Shown here in pieces: positions 14,851 to 54,812 of a DNA stretch of 64,000 bases. Within the stretch, counting starts at the first letter, position 1. The number at the start of each line of letters is the position of its first letter. This DNA comes from Adineta ricciae (taxonomy: Eukaryota; Rotifera; Eurotatoria; Adinetida; Adinetidae). The stretch spans positions 248,001 to 312,000 of the forward strand of contig CAJNOJ010000007.1 of the NCBI GenBank assembly GCA_905250025.1, given 5' to 3'. The notes below the pieces were generated by a model, which was not told the DNA's origin, made no database searches, and worked only from the letters and a program-made list of their open reading frames with translations. The position numbers and the translations under genes are program-made.

Positions 14851-16331
14851 ATGGCGAGTGCGTCGTCATATGATTTATGTTCAAGATGTACAAGTAAATA
14901 CAATAGAAATCAACTGTCTCTATGCCAGTGCAAACATTGCTCGCAATCGTTTTGTTTCGATTGTTTCAAAGAGCATCGAGACGAAATCGATCACGACTAC
15001 GAGGAACTTTTAAATCGTTGTAACGAAGAAGACGTTGATTGTAAATGAAACCAGTCACGCCAAGAGACAGTTGAATGAATGGCTTCAGAATTACATTAAA
15101 AATTTAACAGCAGAGAAAGTCAAAATTGACGCCGAAATCGATGATGAAAATAAATGCACACAGGTTCCTCACTCGGCGTACGTTCTATGAATGGTGTTCA
15201 TTTACTTTATTTTAGGCATTCATATTGGAACTTGAAGCGAAACTACAAAGTTGCACTGCCGATTTCAAAAGTTCTGCAAAAGAGAATATGTATAAAGCAG
15301 AACATTTAAGAAAGCTTCTAAACGATGTTGAAGAGCTTAAACAACGAGTTGAGTCATTGACGCTCGTGATAGAATATGATCTACCATCGGCCATGCCAAA
15401 ATGTACATTTAAATTTAAGTGTTGCTCGAAAAGCACGATTGATGATGATCAACAAGATCAACAAAAATATGACACTAAGGAACGATGTCCACCATCAACC
15501 GAAAATGAAGATACTGATACTGATGATAGTGATATGTCATTTCCCGACGAAAATTACTTTTCTAATCGAGATAAACATGAGGCAACATCCTTCGTTGTTA
15601 ATTGTATGGCAACCGATGGAATAAACATCATGTATTCTTCAATTGCAGATCCGCACCAAGAATTGATAGCATATTGTTACTTACAAACGTCTGATGTTGG
15701 CTATAGAAAGGCTGACCCTAGCCGATTATGGAAACAATCACGTATTATTGATATGATTTGGTGGGATGCCATTGATAAGTTTGTCTGTGCGACAGATAAA
15801 GGAATTTATCTAGTGGAGTTTACAAATCCATTGTTTCGTATTTCGCATGTCAAACAAACTCCATTGCCGCAAGTGCGAATTGCAGCGACTGCTCATCATA
15901 TACGGATCCATACACTCACACAAATGATGATTTACGATACAAGTTTTCAGCTAATACGATCATTCAATTTTAGTTTTTCACGTTCTTTAAGAATGGCTAG
16001 TTTCTGTTTGACAGACAGCGTCGTCGCTTGTGCTTTGATACGTCATATAGAAAACGCCAAATATGTATTACAAGTTGAACTCTACAACCACAATATGGTA
16101 AGGGAAAAAAGAATTCGTATAGGAATAAGTGAAGCATCATGTACGATTCGAACGGATGGTAGTGACAGATTTTACGTGGCCTTTGGACAACAACGATTTT
16201 GTATTGTTTCGTCCAGTGGTAGTGTACAAACAGTTAATCTAGGAAAACAAGCTAACAATCTGGCTGTTGTGAATAGTCACAACGTCGTTTTAACGAAAGT
16301 ACGCTCTGATGTAGAACTGGTGCGGTGCTAA
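14851..16331 (+). pseudogene. B-box/propeller paralogue A, frameshifted
   Basis: First of three related genes. The N-terminus (MASASSYDLC) carries a B-box-like zinc cluster, CSRC then LCQCKHC, FCFDC and EH. A coiled-coil segment follows. Exon 2 (15216-16331) encodes an acidic linker and a C-terminal domain with WKQSRIIDMIWWD, also found in paralogues B and C. The first frame ends in a stop at 15046-15048. The coiled coil continues in the +1 frame: around 15017-15030 the alternative frame reads KKTLIVNET, matching KKKMIVDET in B and KQNMIVEET in C. About six residues present in B and C are missing at that point, so a small frame-changing deletion is the simplest explanation. The intron would be about 15164-15215. 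The 1.1-kb second exon is fully open, so the lesion is recent, an assembly error, or the gene is expressed in altered form. Confidence 0.65.
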
Positions 16332-16650
16332 ACATGTTGACTTAAGTCCTCTCTTTTGATGTAATTTTTCTTTGAAGTACTTGTGCACAGTTTTAACGTA
16401 TTTTCAAAAATTATAGCATCATGCACACAAGCCCTCTGCATACACGCCACGTTCTTTCACAATTTACACAAACATCCTACTCTCGTTGTTGTGAGAATTG
16501 TCGCTTTTCAGCTTTTTTACAAGGCTTCTGTGCTGACTGAAAGAACTTTTTTTTTCTCATATAACATCAGGAAGCGTTCCGTGACTTTGTTTTTTTATTT
16601 CTCGAAAAGAGCGAAGAGAAAAGGGTTTGACACAATCACACAAAAAAGCT
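16332..16650. other. Spacer between paralogues A and B
   Basis: About 320 bp between tandem B-box genes, AT-rich, presumably 3' UTR of A and promoter of B. I see no gene. Confidence 0.5.
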
Positions 16651-18283
16651 ATGGCAACTGCGGCAATACCACCGAGTATCAATGATTCCAAATCGTGTCT
16701 CTTCTGTTCTACCAAATATGATCGTTCAAGACCGTCAATTTGTCTATGCCAACATTGCTCTATTCCGCTATGTTTCGAGTGCATGAAACAACACCATGAT
16801 GATATTCTACAGGACACCGCTCAACTATCACATCAATATAATGAGTTGAGGCAACTTTTCGAAACGAAAAAGAAAATGATTGTTGATGAAACAGCAAGCA
16901 CAATTGAAACTGTTAACAACCACTTCAACTCTTACATAAATGAACTTCTGGATGCGCAACATCGAATCATTGAAGAATTAAAGACAACAGAACAACAAGC
17001 AAAAGTAATTACACTCAATCTATTGCAAAACTCATTATTTGTTAATATTCTTCTAGGAATCTTTAGTAGATGTCGATTCGAAGTTGCAATCGCTCAGTAC
17101 TGATATTGAAGCTTTGTCCAAAGACGGTATTGTTCAAAAAGAAAGAATGACTATTTTATCGACAGGAATGAAAACCCTCGAACAGCGACTGAATAATTAC
17201 CAAGTGATGAAAACTGAAAATCTTACTCGAACACGACAAATGCTTACGATGTCTTTTGGTTATTCTCCAACAGTAGAAGAGATACCATCCTCACGCAATC
17301 AAACAAATGAAAATACCCAAAATAAAGTAAAGACGGAAGAAAACACTTCTTCAGTGAATGCAATGGTCGTTTCAAAATTAGAAGTTGCGACATCAGACAA
17401 GCCTCTGGATAGCGTACAATCGGTCTCGAACGTTATACAGCCATGTTACGCCGTATACGGCTATGCTAGCGACGAGGAGGACGAAGATGAAATCAATATA
17501 AAGATTAGCTTTGATCAAACACCCCATAATATTGATCGAATTGCAAGTGATGGAGATAATATTCTTTATACAAGTTACTTTGATGACGGATGTGATACTA
17601 TAGAACACTTTATCTTAGATTACAAAGATGGTAGGTCCAACATCTGTCGTGATTGGAAACAATCACGAATTATAGACTTAGTATGGTGGAATAGCATTGA
17701 GAAATTCGTTTGTGTTACTATGAAAGGAATCTATACAGTACAACGTAGGGCTGAGACACTGAAGATTATGTGTACTATTAAAGACGACTGGTCATACGCT
17801 CGTGTTGCGACAAACGACTACACACTTTTCTTGTGGATAAACAGTGTGGATAGTGGATTTAATGGAATTGATGTGTACTCAACAAATTTCGATCGTCTTA
17901 AGATAATTGATTTCAATAATAATTCGCCTGGATCTTTTATAGATAACAGCACTAGTTTCTGTGCGACGAACAATACAATAGTGTCATTATGTACTCGTAC
18001 ACGACGCAATCGCAACGTGTTTCAGGCCACCTTTTGCAATCTACATATGAATAGATCGCATTATGTTATTCTTGGCAAATACAATAACGAAATAGAAATT
18101 CGTAGTGATAGTGAAGGCCGACTTTTTATTACAACAGGTCTGAATCGCCTACATATTATCTCTCCTACTGGGCAGAAGCGAACGATCAGATTGAGAAGCA
18201 ATGGTGAATCCATTGCTATTCTTAACAATCGACGCGTGGCAATCGGGAATGGAAGTCGACAAATGCAAATTATAGAATATTGA
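16651..18283 (+). CDS. B-box/coiled-coil/propeller-like protein, paralogue B
   Basis: Intact member of the local family. Exons 16651-17004 and 17057-18283 join in phase 0 to 526 residues. I chose the ATG at 16651 over the upstream in-frame one at 16627 because the paralogues start equally close to the zinc motif. The N-terminal zinc cluster is CLFC, CLCQHC, LCFEC, KQHH. A coiled coil follows over about residues 50-190, then an acidic disordered linker of about 80 residues. The C-terminal domain of about 260 residues has repeated beta-type blocks: RIASDGDNILYTSYF, WKQSRIIDLVWWNSIEKF, GIYTVQ, SYARVATNDYTLFLW. The layout recalls TRIM-NHL proteins without a RING, but the C-terminal domain does not show a clear NHL consensus. 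Function unknown; a ligand-binding or substrate-scaffold role is only a guess. Confidence 0.72.
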
Positions 18284-19202: not shown

Positions 19203-19600
19203 AAATCATTCAAAAGAGAATGCTTGTTATCTTTACATAACAACATTCTTTACTCTTAGAATTGACGCACAGTCATGAAGCATTTATTTTTTCGTTTCTT
19301 CGTTTACTTCATATAATAAGCATACATGTCCATCACAGGTTACCAAGAAACATTCAACATCAACTGATCAAGCGTAACCCTTTTCGCTTTTTTCTCTCTC
19401 TTATTTATAACTGTGTGTCTCATAGGTCACATAATCATCGACTAGTATTTTATTCGCAAAAAAAAATCGCCACAGCTACTAGTGTATTCATTTGAAAATA
19501 ATCCTCCACTGTCTAATTGACGCGATGGGTGTATGTTAAGCAAGATTCGTGATTATGATTCGTATTGGTCAGAAGATTTCTATTGCATCGATTTAATGTA
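19203..19600. other. Spacer upstream of GH20 gene
   Basis: About 400 bp, AT-rich, with no supportable gene. It is presumably the promoter and 5' UTR of the plus-strand hexosaminidase. The 19262-19495 open frame is not convincing. Confidence 0.5.
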
Positions 19601-21860
19601 ATGCTATTGACGAATATGTTCAAGATTCTATTTATATTCTTCTTGGTTGGTTTCTTGTTGCTTCTCTTTCGATTATTTTCAACTAATTCACCGTCGCAAT
19701 CAATCGATGCGTTCAATAAATCTCTCGAAAAGAAGATTCAAGATGATAAACAGAAATCTACTCCCCCGATAACACATGTTCGAGTTATACCGATGCCATA
19801 TGATGTCGAGCTAAAGTCGTCGAGTATTGTCTTGTCACGCGATTTACATATAGCAACGAGCCAGAAGCAGTCGAAATATCTCCAATCTGCGCTGACTCGC
19901 TATTCTAAATACATCTCTGAGCTAACAGGGATTTCAGTCAAAATCGATAAGTCTCCTTCTTCGTCTGGTAATCTGTTAACTATTAGTTGCAAATCGAAAA
20001 ATTGCAATGATGACAACTATCCTGAACTCAACGAAGATGAATCTTATATACTCAATGTCACAGAGACTGAATCGTCGCTATCAGCAATTACATTGACAGG
20101 TATCGTTCGAGGCCTTTCAACATTCGTCCAACTGATCGAACGAGACAAGTCATCAGGCACAGTTTTTATTCCCTGTGTGAATATCGTTGATCGACCCCGA
20201 TTTCCATGGCGTGGTCTATTGCTGGATGTTTCTCGACATTGGATGCCGATACCAGTCATCGAACGAACATTGAATGCAATGGAACTGAGTAAAATGAATG
20301 TTCTTCATTTGCATCTGTCAGATGATCAAGGTTTTCGTGTTGAAAGTCTGGTATATCCATTATTACACGATCGAAAAGATTACTTTAGTCAAAAAGATAT
20401 TCGATATCTGGTGGATTATGCTGCCCAGCGACGTATTCGTCTGATACCCGAATTTGATATTCCAGGTCACACAACGACGTACGTATTTCCACCATACAAT
20501 GAACGTTTTTGTTTATTTCTATTGAGCTATCTGTTTTAGTTGGTTTATTGGCTATCCTGATTTAGCTACAGAGCGAGGTCCATATGAAATTGCTACACAT
20601 TGGGGTATAATGAAAGCAACTATGGATCCGACAAAAGAAAGCACATATACTTTTATTGATAAGTTCTTCGAAGAAATGACACAGTTATTTCCTGACTCAT
20701 ATTTTCATATCGGTGGTGATGAAGTCGAGGGTAGTCAATGGAGAGAATCATTGTCTATTCGGAATTTTACTAGAGAACATAATATGGCAGGTAATCAAGA
20801 TCTGCAAGCTTATTTCAATAAGCGTATTCAAAAAATTCTCAAAAAATATGGAAGAGTTATGATTGGATGGGAAGAAATTCTGGAAAATCTAGTCATTGAC
20901 CGAGATGCTGCAATTCAATCATGGAAAAGTCGACAATCGTTGGTAGATGCTGTTCAGAAAGGTTACCAAGCATTGCTCTCTCATAGCTATTATCTGGATC
21001 ATATCAACACAGCGTTAACCTACTACCGAGTGGATCCTATTCATGATCACGAACTGAAAATGCTCAGTAAAGACCAGCAAAAGCGAATTCTTGGTGGAGA
21101 GGCTTGTATGTGGAGCGAATTCGTTTCAAACGAGACAGTCGATTCTCGCATATGGCCACATACCCTACCCATTGCTGAACGGTTTTGGTCACCGCCATCG
21201 ACAATCGATCTAAGATCTGTTCACGAACGCCTCTTTCGTATGAACCATTTACTCGATAAGATGCAAACGGGTGTGACACATCTGTCGTCATATAAATCTC
21301 GATTGCAAGATTTGATCATCGACACTGACAAAAAGAAGGACCTTCTTCATCCTTTAGTGATTTTAGCTGATGTTTGTGAACCCGGCGGTATTAATGATCG
21401 GGCTAAAACAGGAAAATATAAAACGAATACGCCTTTAACAACCTTCGCTGATATTTTACAAACTGAAAGCGAGCAAGTATGGAAAGTTCAACAACTTTCC
21501 ATTGATGATCCAAAATTAGCTGAAATCTTCAAAACATGGTCTCTCATTTATGTTCGTCTGCGGACTCTTTTTGATGGCAATGAAATTCACAAAAGTAGAA
21601 AGCTCTGGGGACAGGATATTGAAAAATTGTCCAAAAATCTCGCTCATGTCGGTCAAATCGGCCTAAAAATACTTGAATACAGTGGTAATAAAACATTCAA
21701 AGACGAAAAAGCCAATAGTACAAATTCGTGGAAGTTATCAGAGTGGATATCAAATCAGCGAGCAGCATTAGACGACTTAGAAAACAACGTTGCTGAAGTA
21801 CGTCTAGCAGCTGCCAGACCAGTTCGCCGTTTACTTGATTCCGTAAAGACAGCGAGTTAA
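19601..21860 (+). CDS. GH20 beta-N-acetylhexosaminidase, bacterial-like
   Basis: Predicted glycoside hydrolase family 20 enzyme that removes terminal GlcNAc/GalNAc from glycans or chito-oligosaccharides. Exons 19601-20478 and 20540-21860 join in phase 2 to 732 residues. The first ATG (19601) gives an N-terminal hydrophobic anchor (MFKILFIFFLVGFLLLLF), so a type II membrane or secreted protein is likely. A GH20b-type domain (VRVIPMPYDVEL) precedes the catalytic barrel. The barrel shows FPWRGLLLDVSRHW, HLHLSDDQGFR, PEFDIPGHT, HIGGDEVEG (catalytic Asp-Glu near 353-354), MIGWEEIL, GGEACMWSE and IAERFWS. A helical extension of about 200 residues (LADVCEPGG onward) is, from memory, typical of some bacterial GH20s and absent from animal HEXA/HEXB. 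It differs clearly from the second, animal-type GH20 gene at 44156-46383. AATAAA lies at 21882-21887, 22 nt past the stop. Confidence 0.88.
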
Positions 21861-22223: not shown

Positions 22224-23813
22224 ATGACTAGTACACAGAACTACGACGTCGAATCTTGTTCTTTTTGTTTGACTACTCACAGCCGGACTCGGCCTTCGTT
22301 TTGTCAATGCAAACACTGCTTTATTTCTCTGTGTCTTGAATGTATAAGTCAGCATCATAATGATATCTTACAAGAAGTACTGCAGCTATCACATAAATGC
22401 AATGAATTACAAGAACTCGTGTTGAACAAACAAAATATGATTGTTGAAGAAACAAACAAGACTATCGAAGATACGAACAGCTATTTTGATTCGTACATAG
22501 ACGAACTTCGTGATACACAGCGCAGAGTTGTTAACGATCTACAAAAGACAAAACAAGACGCACAAGTAATATTATACGATGCTAACGAATAAATACCTTT
22601 CTTTATATCTGATTTGTAGACATACATCGCAAATGTGAATTCAGAAATACAATCACTGAATGGTGATGTTCAAGCATTAATTAAAGAAAACGTTGTTCAG
22701 CTGGCAAAAATGGCTCGTGTATCAATTGCGGCGAACAAGCTCGACCAACAAATGAACAATTATCAAATGACGAAAATTATCGATTTTGTTAAAGTAAATC
22801 CAGTGATAGCTATTAAATTCGGTGATATACCGACAGTATCCGAAGCACAACAAGATCATGTTATCACGGATCGAAGTAAAAGTTGTCTTCGAAATAACGA
22901 AGAATCAGAATCCGTCGTCGACGAGTCCGAATCACCAACTGAATTACCAGACGCAGAAGAACATACAGCAAATGCAACAGGAGAAGATGATGCTGAATCA
23001 TACACGACATGTCTTGACACGATGATTATAAAGCAGAATCGTATTGTAACCTCGTATAACGTCAATCGAATAGCAAGCGACGGTAAAAACATTCTCTACG
23101 CCAGCTATGTTCAAGATGCGCCTGATATCATCGCATACTGTCACTTCAATGATGACGGGAGACAGATTGATGAACATCGAAATTGGAATCAGTCCCAAAT
23201 TGAGGATCTGATATGGTGGGATGAGATTCAGAAATTCGTTTGTATAACTGAAAATGCAGTTTATACAGTTGAATATGTCAATCGAACATTGAAAATTATA
23301 CTTGTTATCCATGGCGCATGGTCGTACGCTCGAGTTGCAACAAATAAGCGCGAACTTTTCTTATGGGTGGATACTACCAACAGGAGATTCAACGGTATAG
23401 AAGTGTATTCAACAAATTTCGGTCGAATACGAACGATTGATTTCAATTGTGGTCAAATAGGACCTTATGCTGATGAGAGTGTTAGCTTTTGTGTAACTAA
23501 CAATAGTATAGCGTTGTTGTGTGTTCGCACTAGACACAAACGTCACAAGCTTAGTGCTAATTTCTGCGATTTTGAGATGCATAGATTAAATTTATTCCGA
23601 CTTGGCATATGCACTGGCGATGCAGAAATTCGCAGTGATGGCAAAGATCGACTCTTCGTTACGACCGGTAAACAAAAACTCTACATATTTTCATCGATGA
23701 ATCAAATGCGATGGATTACATTAGAAGATCCTGGTGAGTGTATTGCAGTTCTCAATGGTCGACGTCTTGCGGTCGGCAATGGTGGTCATGAAATTCAAGT
23801 CGTACACTACTGA
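22224..23813 (+). CDS. B-box/coiled-coil/propeller-like protein, paralogue C
   Basis: Second intact family member. Exons 22224-22565 and 22620-23813 join in phase 0 to 511 residues, with a 54-nt intron at the same place as in paralogue B. The zinc cluster is CSFC, FCQCKHC, LCLEC, QHH. A coiled coil follows (KQNMIVEETNKTIED), then an acidic Ser/Glu-rich linker. The C-terminal domain is shared with B: NRIASDGKNILYASYV, WNQSQIEDLIWWDEIQKF, SYARVATNKRELFLWVD, GIEVYSTNF, and the final block SVSFCVTN to GHEIQVVHY. Its 3' end is convergent with the deiodinase-like gene, 180 bp apart. Function unknown. Confidence 0.72.
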
Positions 23814-23848
23814 CGAACTTTGTAAAGGATGTTATTGAATTCGATTGT

Positions 23849-23854
23849 TTTATT
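23849..23854 (-). terminator. Poly(A) signal of deiodinase-like gene
   Basis: AATAAA on the minus strand (TTTATT on plus), about 140 nt beyond the deiodinase-like stop. It limits the 3' UTR where a SECIS element would have to lie. Confidence 0.5.
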
Positions 23855-23993
23855 TCATGGATAAAAGGGAAAATCGAAATGAATAGATTGAAACTAAAAA
23901 CAATGTAAAGATGTTCCGAATACAATTTGTTCTGATTTCATGCCGAGACTTTGAAATTGATTCATCATTAGAGTACATCATTTCTAATTCATT

Positions 23994-24949
23994 CTATTCG
24001 TTGGATTCTGCGATTATTCTCAAATGATCAATCAATTCTCGTAGTTCTAACATTGTTTCACTTGGCTGTGCTTTGTACACTAAGCGATGGTCTTTGTCAA
24101 TAATATAGATTCGCACCGGCCATGAAGAATATAACTTTTCAAATAGATTTTCATCAGGCTTATCAATCACAATTGGCATTTCGAGATTAAAATCACGAAT
24201 GAAATCTCTTGTAACTGCTATACGTTCTTCAACTGTCCGAGTTTGATTATATTTTATTGGCATTTGTGTTGGACTCCAGCGTGCACTACTAATTGGCCAC
24301 TCGTCTTGTGCATGTGCTTCGAGAATATAAACAAAGCGAAAATTGATCAATTCATAATAAGTTCTATACAAGTCAGATAATTGAGTCATAATCGCTCGTA
24401 GTGGTGGTCATGAATATGAACCGCCAATTAGTACAGTTGATGACGACGATTTCAATCCATCGAATAATTGACCTTCTTTTCCATCGACTTGAACGATGGG
24501 AACATTGGGCACGATGTCTCCGATTTGTAAATTTCCATCGGTAGCTCGATTGTATTTTGTATAGAATGGAATTTCCTTCAAATCAGGATAAATTTGGGTG
24601 GCACATCTTAAACATAGCAATGCAGCGTCCATTTCTTCATCAAGGTGAAACTCTCGTATCACTTGTTTTTGTAATTCATTCACGACGTCCAACCATGATG
24701 ACGAAGAGCTTTGTTCGGCTTCACTGAATTGCTTTTGATATTCATCGGATAAACGTAATTCATTTTCTCTTACAAGCATCTGCTTGAGTAAACTCTTCGG
24801 AATAAATGACTGAGGCACTGGCACCGACTAATAGAAATGCGTAATGATCATCAATTCAATAAGATGCATCGAGAAACACTTACGTTTGATTTAATCAAAT
24901 CGTCATAGGTGAAATTCGCCCGACCACTGGTTACATGAACCATGCCCAT
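23994..24949 (-). CDS. DIO: Iodothyronine deiodinase-family selenoprotein
   Basis: Predicted thioredoxin-fold oxidoreductase of the iodothyronine deiodinase family. Exon 1 (24884-24949) begins MGMVHVTSGRANFTYDD. Exon 2 (23994-24827) joins in phase 0. The frame is interrupted only by a TGA at 24408-24410, which falls exactly at the family's catalytic selenocysteine: GGSYS-UGA-PPLRAI against the known GSCT-Sec-PPF. Read as Sec (about residue 162), the protein is 299 residues. Downstream family blocks are intact: FVYILEAHAQDEWP, MPIVIDKPDENLF and RIYIIDKDHRLVYK. No N-terminal transmembrane anchor is visible, unlike vertebrate DIO1-3, so it may be soluble. Thyroid-hormone activity should not be assumed; a general reductive or dehalogenating role is possible. 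It is divergent from KDM5 and convergent with paralogue C. No canonical SECIS core was found by eye. Confidence 0.85.
24408..24410 (-). other. DIO: Predicted UGA selenocysteine codon
   Basis: TGA on the minus strand, in frame within the deiodinase-like coding sequence and aligned with the catalytic Sec of the family. The same frame continues 138 codons further with strong family similarity. Confidence 0.85.
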
Positions 24950-52225: not shown

Positions 52226-54812
52226 TTAAGCACCTAGAATAATCCCATAGATAGAAATTTTTCGAACGAGAACACTATGTAACTTACTAAGTTCACAGAA
52301 ACGACCGACTCGTCCAGATGGACAACGGCATTCTGCTGTTGAACCGACAAAGACACACAGACCACCGGCTTGACATTTGAGTGGACAGTATTTTGCATTA
52401 TCTGATTGTTCAACTGCAATGGAAAACTTCATGTTAGTGATCTACTGCGTAAAACTGAGAACAACTTACTTCGCTCACATAAAACACCTGATGTACCCTT
52501 TTGACAGACACATTGTGCACCAGCACTTGCCGTTATACATTTACCATTGTTCATACATGGATTACTTGGTGAACAAGATTTGGGTCGATTCACTAATGGA
52601 AAAGAATGTATGTGAAGATCAGCGTCGATTTCGAACAAAACATCGACTTACTAAGTTCGCATCGTTCTCCGTAGTATTCGTTTGGACACGAACAACGAGC
52701 TTGTCCTCCTTGTTGTTCATCGGTATAGCATTCACCGCCATTCAAACAGGTTAAGTTGCAACGTCTTGATGTCAATGATCGGGCTGCTCGACCTGTGAAC
52801 AAACGATGAAAAGGATTTTTAGAGAAGAAAACGAGTGTCGGTTTTCTTATTGCAACGTACGGAATTGGCAATAGTATCCTTGGTAACTATCTGGACACCA
52901 ACATTTAGCTGCATTATTCTGCACAGAACATCCGCCCATGTTTTGACTGAAAAAAAGAAACACTATTTTCTCTTGTACTAGAATGAAGAATGAAGCAAAC
53001 CATGGATTTGGTGCGCATGGATTCGTAATCACTACCATCGGACATGGAATCACAACACATGCACAACTACCTCCACATGGCGCGCGTGTTGCGATAGTTG
53101 TTGTTGCTGTTGTAGTTGTACTAATTACTAAAAGAATAAATAGAAAAAGATTAGCAGACAAAATGATCAGATAAAGGAGTATACTTTGTTGACAATTAGT
53201 GCCAGTGAATGGATACGAACATGAGCAAATATATCCAGCCGTTGTTTGTGTACAAATGCCATTGTTAGAACATGGATTGGGCATACAGTAGTTACGCGAC
53301 TCACAGCGAGTACCATAGAAACCGGTTTGACATTGACAGAGATATGCTTGAAAGAGACGAGAAACAGACATGCGAATATATTTCCAATTGATCAATTTCA
53401 ACTTACAATTGCCATTTGGAATGCACTGACCGCCGTTTTGACAGGGCGATTGAGCACATGGGTTGTATGGTGTAGTTGTTGTAATACGATTTTCACAGCA
53501 GAGACCGTTGTACATTGGCGGGCATTGACAGAAGAATGAAGAACCTTGTGGAATGCATACACCACCGTTTTGACATGGTGACTGAGCACATGGGTTGTAT
53601 GGTGTAGTTGTTGTAATACGGTTCTCACAGCAGAGACCGTTGTACATTGGCGGGCATTGACAGAAGAACGATGAACCTTGTGGAATGCATACACCACCGT
53701 TTTGGCATGGAGATTGTGCACATGGGTTGTAAGGTGTTGTGGTGGTAATACGGGTCTCACAGCAGAGACCATTGTACATTGGCGGGCATTGGCAGAAGAA
53801 CGATGAACCTTGTGGTATACATACACCACCGTTTTGACATGGTGATTGTGCACATGGATTGTAAGGTGTTGTGGTGGTAATACGGGTCTCACAGCAGAGA
53901 CCATTGTACATTGGTGGGCATTGGCAGAAGAACGATGAACCTTGTGGAATGCATACACCACCGTTTTGACATGGATTTGGTTGGCATGGTGTTCGAGCTA
54001 ATAGAAATCAGTTGGAATCACCTATCGAATACGTCCTGTGAATAACATACCTGGTGCTTCACAACGATTTCCAGTATGTGTTTGTGGGCAGTTGCAGATA
54101 AATCCTTGTCCTGAAGGTATACATTGACCACCGTTGAGACCTATGAAAATAAATATGCCATTTTAAAATTATTTCAATTCGCACAATTCAGGATACTTAC
54201 ATGGGTTGACTGCACACGGATTGCGTGGTTGAACTACAAGAAGAAGAATTCATATAGAAAGATGAAATATGTCGTCGTACTAGTTGGTGGTTGAGTAGGT
54301 GCTGGTGGACATTGATTGTTACCACAAATGCATTGGATTGTATTAACAATGATACCACAAACGCCAGTACCACAAAATGAGCATCCGTATTGTTTTGGTG
54401 TAACAATTGGGCCAAGCGCGCGAGCTTCATCTAATGTTCGACCGACAGCAATGTTGTTAAGTGCATCTTCATCAGCATCGTAGATGATCATGCCATTGGT
54501 AGTTTCGGTTTCAATATTACGTTGTTGGTGAACACGTTTACATGCTTCAACTTGTTCTGTCCATACACATGTTTTCAGTGAATTTTCCCAAGCTGTACCA
54601 GCAGCACATGTGAATCGAATTCGAATATTACCAAAGCATCGTATGAATTTGGTGCAGTTATTTGCATCCGGTGCAAAATCTTCGCATGCTTCTATATAGA
54701 AATTGGAAAATAATTCAATTCCAGAAATATATCACCACTCACGTTGACCAAGAACAGTAAGACCAATTGTAGCTAAAATACATACAGTCAGGGACTGATG
54801 TGCAAATACCAT
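52226..54812 (-). CDS. Secreted CBM14 plus multi-EGF protein
   Basis: Predicted secreted matrix-type protein on many exons. Exon 1 (54743-54812) encodes the signal peptide MVFAHQSLTVCILATIGLTV. Exon 2 encodes a peritrophin-A/CBM14 chitin-binding domain (ACEDFAPDANNCTKFIRCF onward, six Cys) and a Cys-rich linker. About 11 EGF-like domains follow, most on their own exon with phase-1 borders. Four near-identical ones sit in the tandem array at about 53417-53980 (NPCAQSPCQNGGVCIPQGSS). A Thr-rich and Cys-rich spacer (ITNPCAPNPC) interrupts them. The last exon is only 8 nt (52226-52233), completing CELSA and the stop. The array domains carry a seventh cysteine (NGLCCE). No transmembrane helix is seen. 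A TATA-like box lies about 70 nt upstream. It could bind chitin or glycans, but no specific orthologue is evident. Confidence 0.82.
53417..53980 (-). repeat. 132-bp tandem repeat encoding EGF domains
   Basis: Four or more head-to-tail copies with an exact 132-bp period: the CACATGG landmark recurs at 53455, 53587, 53719 and 53851. Each unit encodes one 44-residue EGF-like domain plus an ITTTTPY linker. Copies differ at only a few positions, some shared by neighbouring copies, consistent with recent duplication or gene conversion. Confidence 0.9.

Follow-up and report, generated by a model that had tools for sequence, protein, structure and literature searches.

We identified, in a 64,000-nucleotide window of Adineta ricciae DNA (the whole stretch that was analysed), a minus-strand gene that, judged by its sequence, is an intact-looking selenoprotein gene of the deiodinase superfamily. 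The joint explanation that fits the findings best, and in which we place high confidence, is that the gene encodes a selenoenzyme with selenocysteine (Sec) at an in-frame UGA, namely an anchor-free reductase of the deiodinase superfamily whose substrate is probably not an iodothyronine. This reading builds on the reading frame, the conservation of the UGA, the Sec machinery genes in the genome, the pattern of active-site residues and the predicted fold.

Gene model, family membership and predicted fold

The gene comprises two coding exons on the minus strand. Exon 1 (24884..24949; 22 codons, MGMVHVTSGRANFTYDDLIKSN) has an inferred start codon, and exon 2 (23994..24827) encodes the deiodinase-like thioredoxin-fold domain and includes the stop codon TAG at 23996-23994. 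A predicted GT-AG intron of 56 nt (24828..24883) was placed between them by analysis of the spliced frame. After splicing, the gene has 299 codons plus stop, intact splice sites and a single in-frame TGA at codon 162 (24408..24410, minus strand), a putative Sec codon in the context SYS-U-PPL. A sequence-only reading of this DNA had located a single TGA at the deiodinase Sec site, precisely where the spliced frame has it, but had taken 23994-24949 to be one frame; without splicing, the frame starting at 24949 is full of stops. The family similarity that it described beyond the TGA was recovered as well, over 137 codons and not 138, a figure reached only by counting the stop.

With the TGA read as U, as the same reading had advised for a family search, the window protein matched PF00837 (T4_deiodinase) above the curated cut-off of 27 (1.6e-18, 67.3 bits). 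The piece behind the TGA matched this family on its own (2.1e-10, 40.7 bits), and the exon-2 piece upstream of the TGA had no Pfam match by itself (E up to 1). Both the Sec site of the deiodinase superfamily (S-x-T/S-U-P) and its EAH motif are present. Among solved structures, Dio3 (1.5e-9) and Dio2 (1.5e-6) are closest in sequence, and a Foldseek search with an AlphaFold model of exon 2 returned mouse Dio2 and Dio3 as its top two matches (target TM 0.82 and 0.80). Mean pLDDT of this model is 68.9, with values mostly of 75-93 in the thioredoxin part; the N-terminal helices and one loop (pLDDT 43-50) are modelled with low confidence. No relative was found in IMG/VR (two queries) or in phage records, and an exact search with a 23-nt bdelloid spliced-leader sequence gave 0 matches.

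Two deiodinase types in one genome

Searching the 130.46-Mb genome, whose 1033 contigs carry C-labels here, uncovered six PF00837 loci. Two of them, both on C102, are identical in the compared part, so that the six loci represent five distinct genes. Based on their residue patterns, given in Dio3 numbering throughout, these genes are of two types: canonical deiodinases on C142 and C437, and window-type genes in the window, on C66 and on C102. For Dio3, PMC12025243 describes a His219-Glu200-Ser167 proton relay acting with Tyr197 and Thr169, a substrate clamp formed by His202 and Arg275, and two resolving cysteines, Cys168 and Cys239.

The window protein shares with mouse Dio3 (4tr3) and Dio2 (9h48) a thioredoxin-type fold, as predicted, and a Sec site with S167 and PP, together with Y197, E200, A201, H202 and W207. 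In contrast to both, it has no anchor-like segment and no GPxGY motif, carries Y, T, M and P at sites 168, 219, 239 and 275, and possesses an extra N-terminal part of ~100 residues (helical in the low-confidence part of the model) as well as an insert of 7-8 residues. The full set of substitutions relative to Dio3 comprises C168 to Y, T169 to S, H219 to T, C239 to M, R275 to P, G276-P277 to S-E and Y280 to L. Its only two cysteines, at positions 94 and 97, form a CLRC motif in the N-terminal part; none lies behind the UGA.

The canonical proteins from C142 and C437 keep Cys168, His219, G276-P277 and Y280, and C437 matches mouse Dio3 at 3.2e-26. Within the window type, the C102 protein is 34% identical to the window protein and 29% to that of C66, and the latter two share 33% identity over the domain. 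Site 168 is Y in the window, S in C66 and Y in C102, and site 219 is T, P and P, respectively. Pro277 is absent from all three; G276 is kept in C66, and Y280 in C66 and C102. Cys239 and Arg275 do not part the types, because both are missing from all five genes.

His219 combined with a GPxGY end motif would mark an iodothyronine deiodinase, and the window protein has neither. GPxGY is kept in Dio3, C142 and C437, and Dio2 has His219 with GPFSY. The resolving cysteines 168 and 239 and Arg275, replaced by Y, M and P in the window protein, form a weak marker, since Dio2 and C142/C437 deviate as well; as C239 and R275 are lost in the canonical paralogs and C168 in Dio2, these losses alone would leave iodothyronines possible as substrates. 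Averaged over 19 residues, the hydropathy of the window protein peaks at 0.8, at the active site, compared with 1.59 at the N-terminus of C437, which argues, by hydropathy and with the inferred exon 1 start, that there is no N-terminal membrane anchor. Two suggestions made from the DNA alone, that the protein is anchor-free and that it may be a non-thyroid family member, thus gain support, the second through the missing Cys168, His219 and Pro277; the window protein probably does not act on iodothyronines.

Bacterial relatives and possible origin

Deiodinase-like selenoproteins are known from prokaryotes, as stated in PMC13188914. A scan of genome contigs yielded seven relatives: the site is TGA in four and Cys in two, and the seventh is a fragment that lacks it. 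Among the best-scoring 30 loci of Planctomycetota, 27 contain one TGA inside the PF00837 match, and the planctomycete deiodinase-like gene encodes a common bacterial selenoprotein that is apparently little studied. In this phylum, to which locus L031 belongs, PF00837 was found in 118 of 392 genomes, in 115 of them above the cut-off.

For a residue comparison, 39 bacterial loci were entered and 31 sequences kept: L066-L069 were dropped as repeats of L031, L032, L035 and L034, and L085, L087, L089 and L093 were not picked up. Cys forms are under-represented in this set, because the motif missed L085, L089 and L093, which have a GNFTC Cys form. By eye, EF-hand-like motifs lie ahead of the Cys-form domains of these three. 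Of the 31 rows, 28 have Y or F at site 168; at site 219, P is found in 27, H in three and Q in one. The window protein, with Y at 168 and a residue other than His at 219, agrees with 28 of 31 rows at either site. G276 and P277, absent from the window protein, are present in all 31 rows, and the window gene further differs in having an intron and an element in the 3' untranslated region (UTR). Pro258 is common to the bacteria and both types from the rotifer genome and is therefore no discriminator. A stretch resembling R..G.L..GD..P ahead of the domain is shared, by eye, between the window protein and L075, L076 and L090. Overall, the active site of the window protein looks more like that of its bacterial relatives than like that of hormone-converting deiodinases, and all three window-type genes bear a resemblance to the deiodinase-like selenoproteins of planctomycetes.

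A tree of 38 rows split C142, C437, Dio2 and Dio3 from the bacteria and the window clade with support of 100/96, the window clade itself receiving 94/90. The window row was the sole end branch flagged as over-long (1.64); when it was removed together with L035 and L036, C102 and C66 joined L075 and L076 at 99/95. With the own-genome and mouse rows constrained to one clade, the AU test gave p 0.225 for all rows and p 0.307 when the window row and L035/L036 were left out.

These data bear on a reading in which the window protein would be an iodothyronine deiodinase after all, changed only by rapid divergence and the loss of its anchor. Its membership in PF00837, the first PDB and fold matches to Dio2 and Dio3, the retained E200 and H202, the likewise missing C239 and R275 of the canonical paralogs, and an AU test that does not reject a single clade of own-genome and mouse rows are all compatible with it. 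However, the window protein lacks C168, H219 and G276-P277, which C142 and C437 keep in the very same genome, and these two are the ones that group with mouse Dio2 and Dio3. We thus consider fast divergence from a hormone deiodinase unlikely and prefer an anchor-free reductase with another substrate.

The grouping suggests that the window-type gene was acquired from bacteria by transfer. It is a suggestion because the AU test does not reject the alternative, the tree is unrooted with long end branches, and its own-genome, mouse and bacterial rows include no invertebrate or protist sequences.

Exon 1 adds a hint of a different kind. Its sequence, MGMVHVTSGRANF, resembles the stretch behind ubiquitin (RGG-M-Y/F-H-x-T/P-S-G-R-x-D/N-F) in other genes of the same genome. 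This post-ubiquitin stretch has 13 matches in the genome, and the motif was seen in 7 of 12 loci fetched. At both C102 loci, a ubiquitin-like frame lies directly upstream of the deiodinase-like frame, and the joined protein matches PF00240 at 2.4e-21. A TGA separates the two frames in all three C102 copies; by eye, a 48-nt intron could join them in two copies, and the truncated third has no such donor. The likeness of exon 1 and the C102 arrangement hint at a possible past fusion. As side observations, the deiodinase-like pair in C102:~144000-161000 of this genome (G000; loci L019, L020, L054-L056) is inverted and identical in the coding part read, the ubiquitin-like frames ahead of it differ from each other, and the third copy, at C102:164088, is broken off soon after its deiodinase-like frame starts.

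A fuller scenario, tentative and as a whole somewhat doubtful, would be that an animal lineage took in a planctomycete-type Sec gene, whose Sec codon survived the passage between domains as a eukaryotic 3' UTR SECIS replaced the bacterial in-frame one, and that the gene expanded beside the canonical deiodinases, with one branch coming to lie directly behind a ubiquitin-like gene and the product being a soluble, non-thyroid selenoreductase.

The UGA as a very probable Sec codon

At the codon homologous to the window's UGA, all six PF00837 loci of the genome carry TGA (at C66, the PF00837 match begins behind it), and a sequencing error in one gene is therefore no explanation. The TGA has been retained though the paralogs are only about one-third identical.

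The earlier claim that this organism has an active Sec insertion system, to be checked in its genome, was borne out at the level of gene content. Two tRNA-Sec genes with anticodon UCA lie on C165 and C275 (69.8 bits; gathering score 47). A SepSecS gene is present (487.4 bits including neighbours; cut-off 224.85), and C76 holds an eEFSec gene, of which 60 residues match the eEFSec PDB chains 5izk, which we take to be the human protein, and 7zjw at 1e-22. Two SPS2 genes each have a KG-TGA-GCKVP active site, and PSTK yielded a weak match only (38.9 bits; cut-off 382.35). None of the 28 matches to the SelB profile exceeded its cut-off; several appeared by eye to be EF-Tu-, GUF1-, HBS1- or eEF1A-like, and the one on C76 is eEFSec. 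Hairpins were also seen by eye in the 3' UTRs of the SPS2 loci (G000 C10:~805600-806700 and C29:~82200-83200), with one matching helix change.

A SECIS-like hairpin in the 3' UTR

The sequence-only reading had pointed to 23700-24000 (minus strand) as the place to look for a SECIS element, and scanners located a SECIS-like hairpin there, at 23895..23986 on the minus strand in the 3' UTR of the window gene. In the minimum-energy fold, helix I pairs 23986-23974 with 23907-23895 (13 bp). An ATGA quartet follows at 23968-23965, with 25 nt between the stop codon and ATGA, and helix II pairs 23963-23954 with 23928-23918 (10 bp, one bulge at 23922). Together with AAA at 23952-23950 and GGA at 23917-23915, this gives the layout ATGA, 12 nt, AAA, loop, GGA. 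A possible poly(A) signal, AATAAA, lies downstream at 23849..23854 on the minus strand.

The first, looser scanner was composed after the C142 and C437 elements had been seen and the window's had been missed by eye, and was later tightened. At all six deiodinase loci (five distinct), the UTR contains a hairpin of 10 bp with [AG]TGA and, 10-12 nt further on, an A run. The tightened version matched seven of eight UTRs, with 10 bp in the six deiodinase UTRs (two of them identical) and 9 bp in the SPS2 UTR on C29; it found nothing in the first 250 nt of the C10 SPS2 UTR, where a similar hairpin is seen by eye. Dinucleotide shuffles did equally well in 15 of 1000 cases for the window UTR; per 1000 shuffles, the count was 1-22 for the remaining deiodinase UTRs and 27 for C29. 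Across 510 tiles of 250 nt from both window strands, 10 had any match and 2 had one of 10 bp, one of which may be the element itself. A stricter scanner, composed after the elements had been seen, matched five of six deiodinase UTRs (all but C66), with 0-5 of 2000 shuffles each; it had no match in either SPS2 UTR, not even when a wider spacing was allowed.

Rfam reported no SECIS over the window, and with E up to 5 it was equally silent at the remaining deiodinase loci and at the SPS2 loci, so that the lack of a match in the window says little. Genome-wide, Rfam SECIS_1 had five matches with E no higher than 10, of which one (on C201) exceeded the cut-off. These were set aside because no selenoprotein frame was seen adjoining them and three had repeat-like flanks by eye. 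A MAFFT alignment of all five elements failed, so a model, R1, was built on three paralog elements. R1 recovered its own sources and the second C102 copy, and missed the held-out elements of the window (contig C7) and C66. In the three aligned elements, 81% of cells pair, compared with 43-62% when slid; two-sided pair changes did not stand out from those in shuffles (79 of 500 reached that level), and the fold energy of the window hairpin is ordinary (z -0.28; 75 of 200 shuffles equally good). Taken together, the hairpin is likely to be a SECIS.

The Sec site, the TGA in six of six loci, the Sec machinery genes and the SECIS-like hairpin make it very likely that the window UGA encodes Sec. The SECIS call is modest taken alone, as would fit a plain stop or a decaying pseudogene. 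Against this, codons with family similarity stay open beyond the UGA, splice sites and stop are intact, the TGA is kept among distant paralogs and the genome carries Sec machinery genes; we regard a stop or pseudogene as highly improbable. Decoding of the UGA through general read-through, or as Trp or Cys under a reassigned code, is scarcely credible: the C142 frame terminates with TGA, the window TGA occupies the family's Sec site, and the genome encodes a tRNA-Sec with a UCA anticodon as well as SPS2 genes that themselves contain TGA.

Proposed mechanism and wider context

From gene content and anatomy, we infer that the ribosome would insert Sec at the UGA with the aid of tRNA-Sec, eEFSec and the 3' UTR hairpin, yielding a deiodinase-superfamily reductase with a thioredoxin fold and no anchor. 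In this enzyme, the Sec selenolate, set amid conserved Ser, Tyr, Glu and His sites, would attack a small substrate; our guess would be a peroxide or some other small molecule that is halogenated or oxidised. The oxidised selenium would then be reduced by an outside thiol or, in the window copy, by the N-terminal CLRC. An outside thiol is probable, because no Cys follows the Sec and both Dio3 resolving-Cys sites hold other residues.

With canonical and bacterial-type genes side by side in one genome, it can be tested which residues made a hormone deiodinase out of a general selenoreductase. Bacteria and animals use different RNA signals to read UGA as Sec; whether a Sec gene can pass from bacteria to animals despite this difference becomes testable, too. 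Deiodinase-family selenoproteins reach far beyond thyroid biology: they include a Dictyostelium homolog with Sec (PMC2375036), the several DI genes of Trichoplax, Lottia, Capitella and amphioxus, which are counted as selenoproteins (PMC3473315), and bacterial proteins (PMC13188914). Several family copies per animal genome are a trait that these invertebrates, compared by description only, share with the rotifer. Among open-access titles and abstract openings, no report of the window-type clade was found, which is weak evidence of novelty.

Elsewhere in the window, several plus-strand frames in 15216-18283 and 22620-23813 are mutually alike by eye, the last being convergent with the deiodinase-like gene. 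Neither of the two that were searched (17057-18280 and 22620-23810) matched a Pfam family. A glycosyl hydrolase family 20 (beta-hexosaminidase-like) gene lies at 19559-21860. On the minus strand, 52847-54007 holds EGF repeats whose protein sequences are almost identical; a second long reading frame is open across these repeats.
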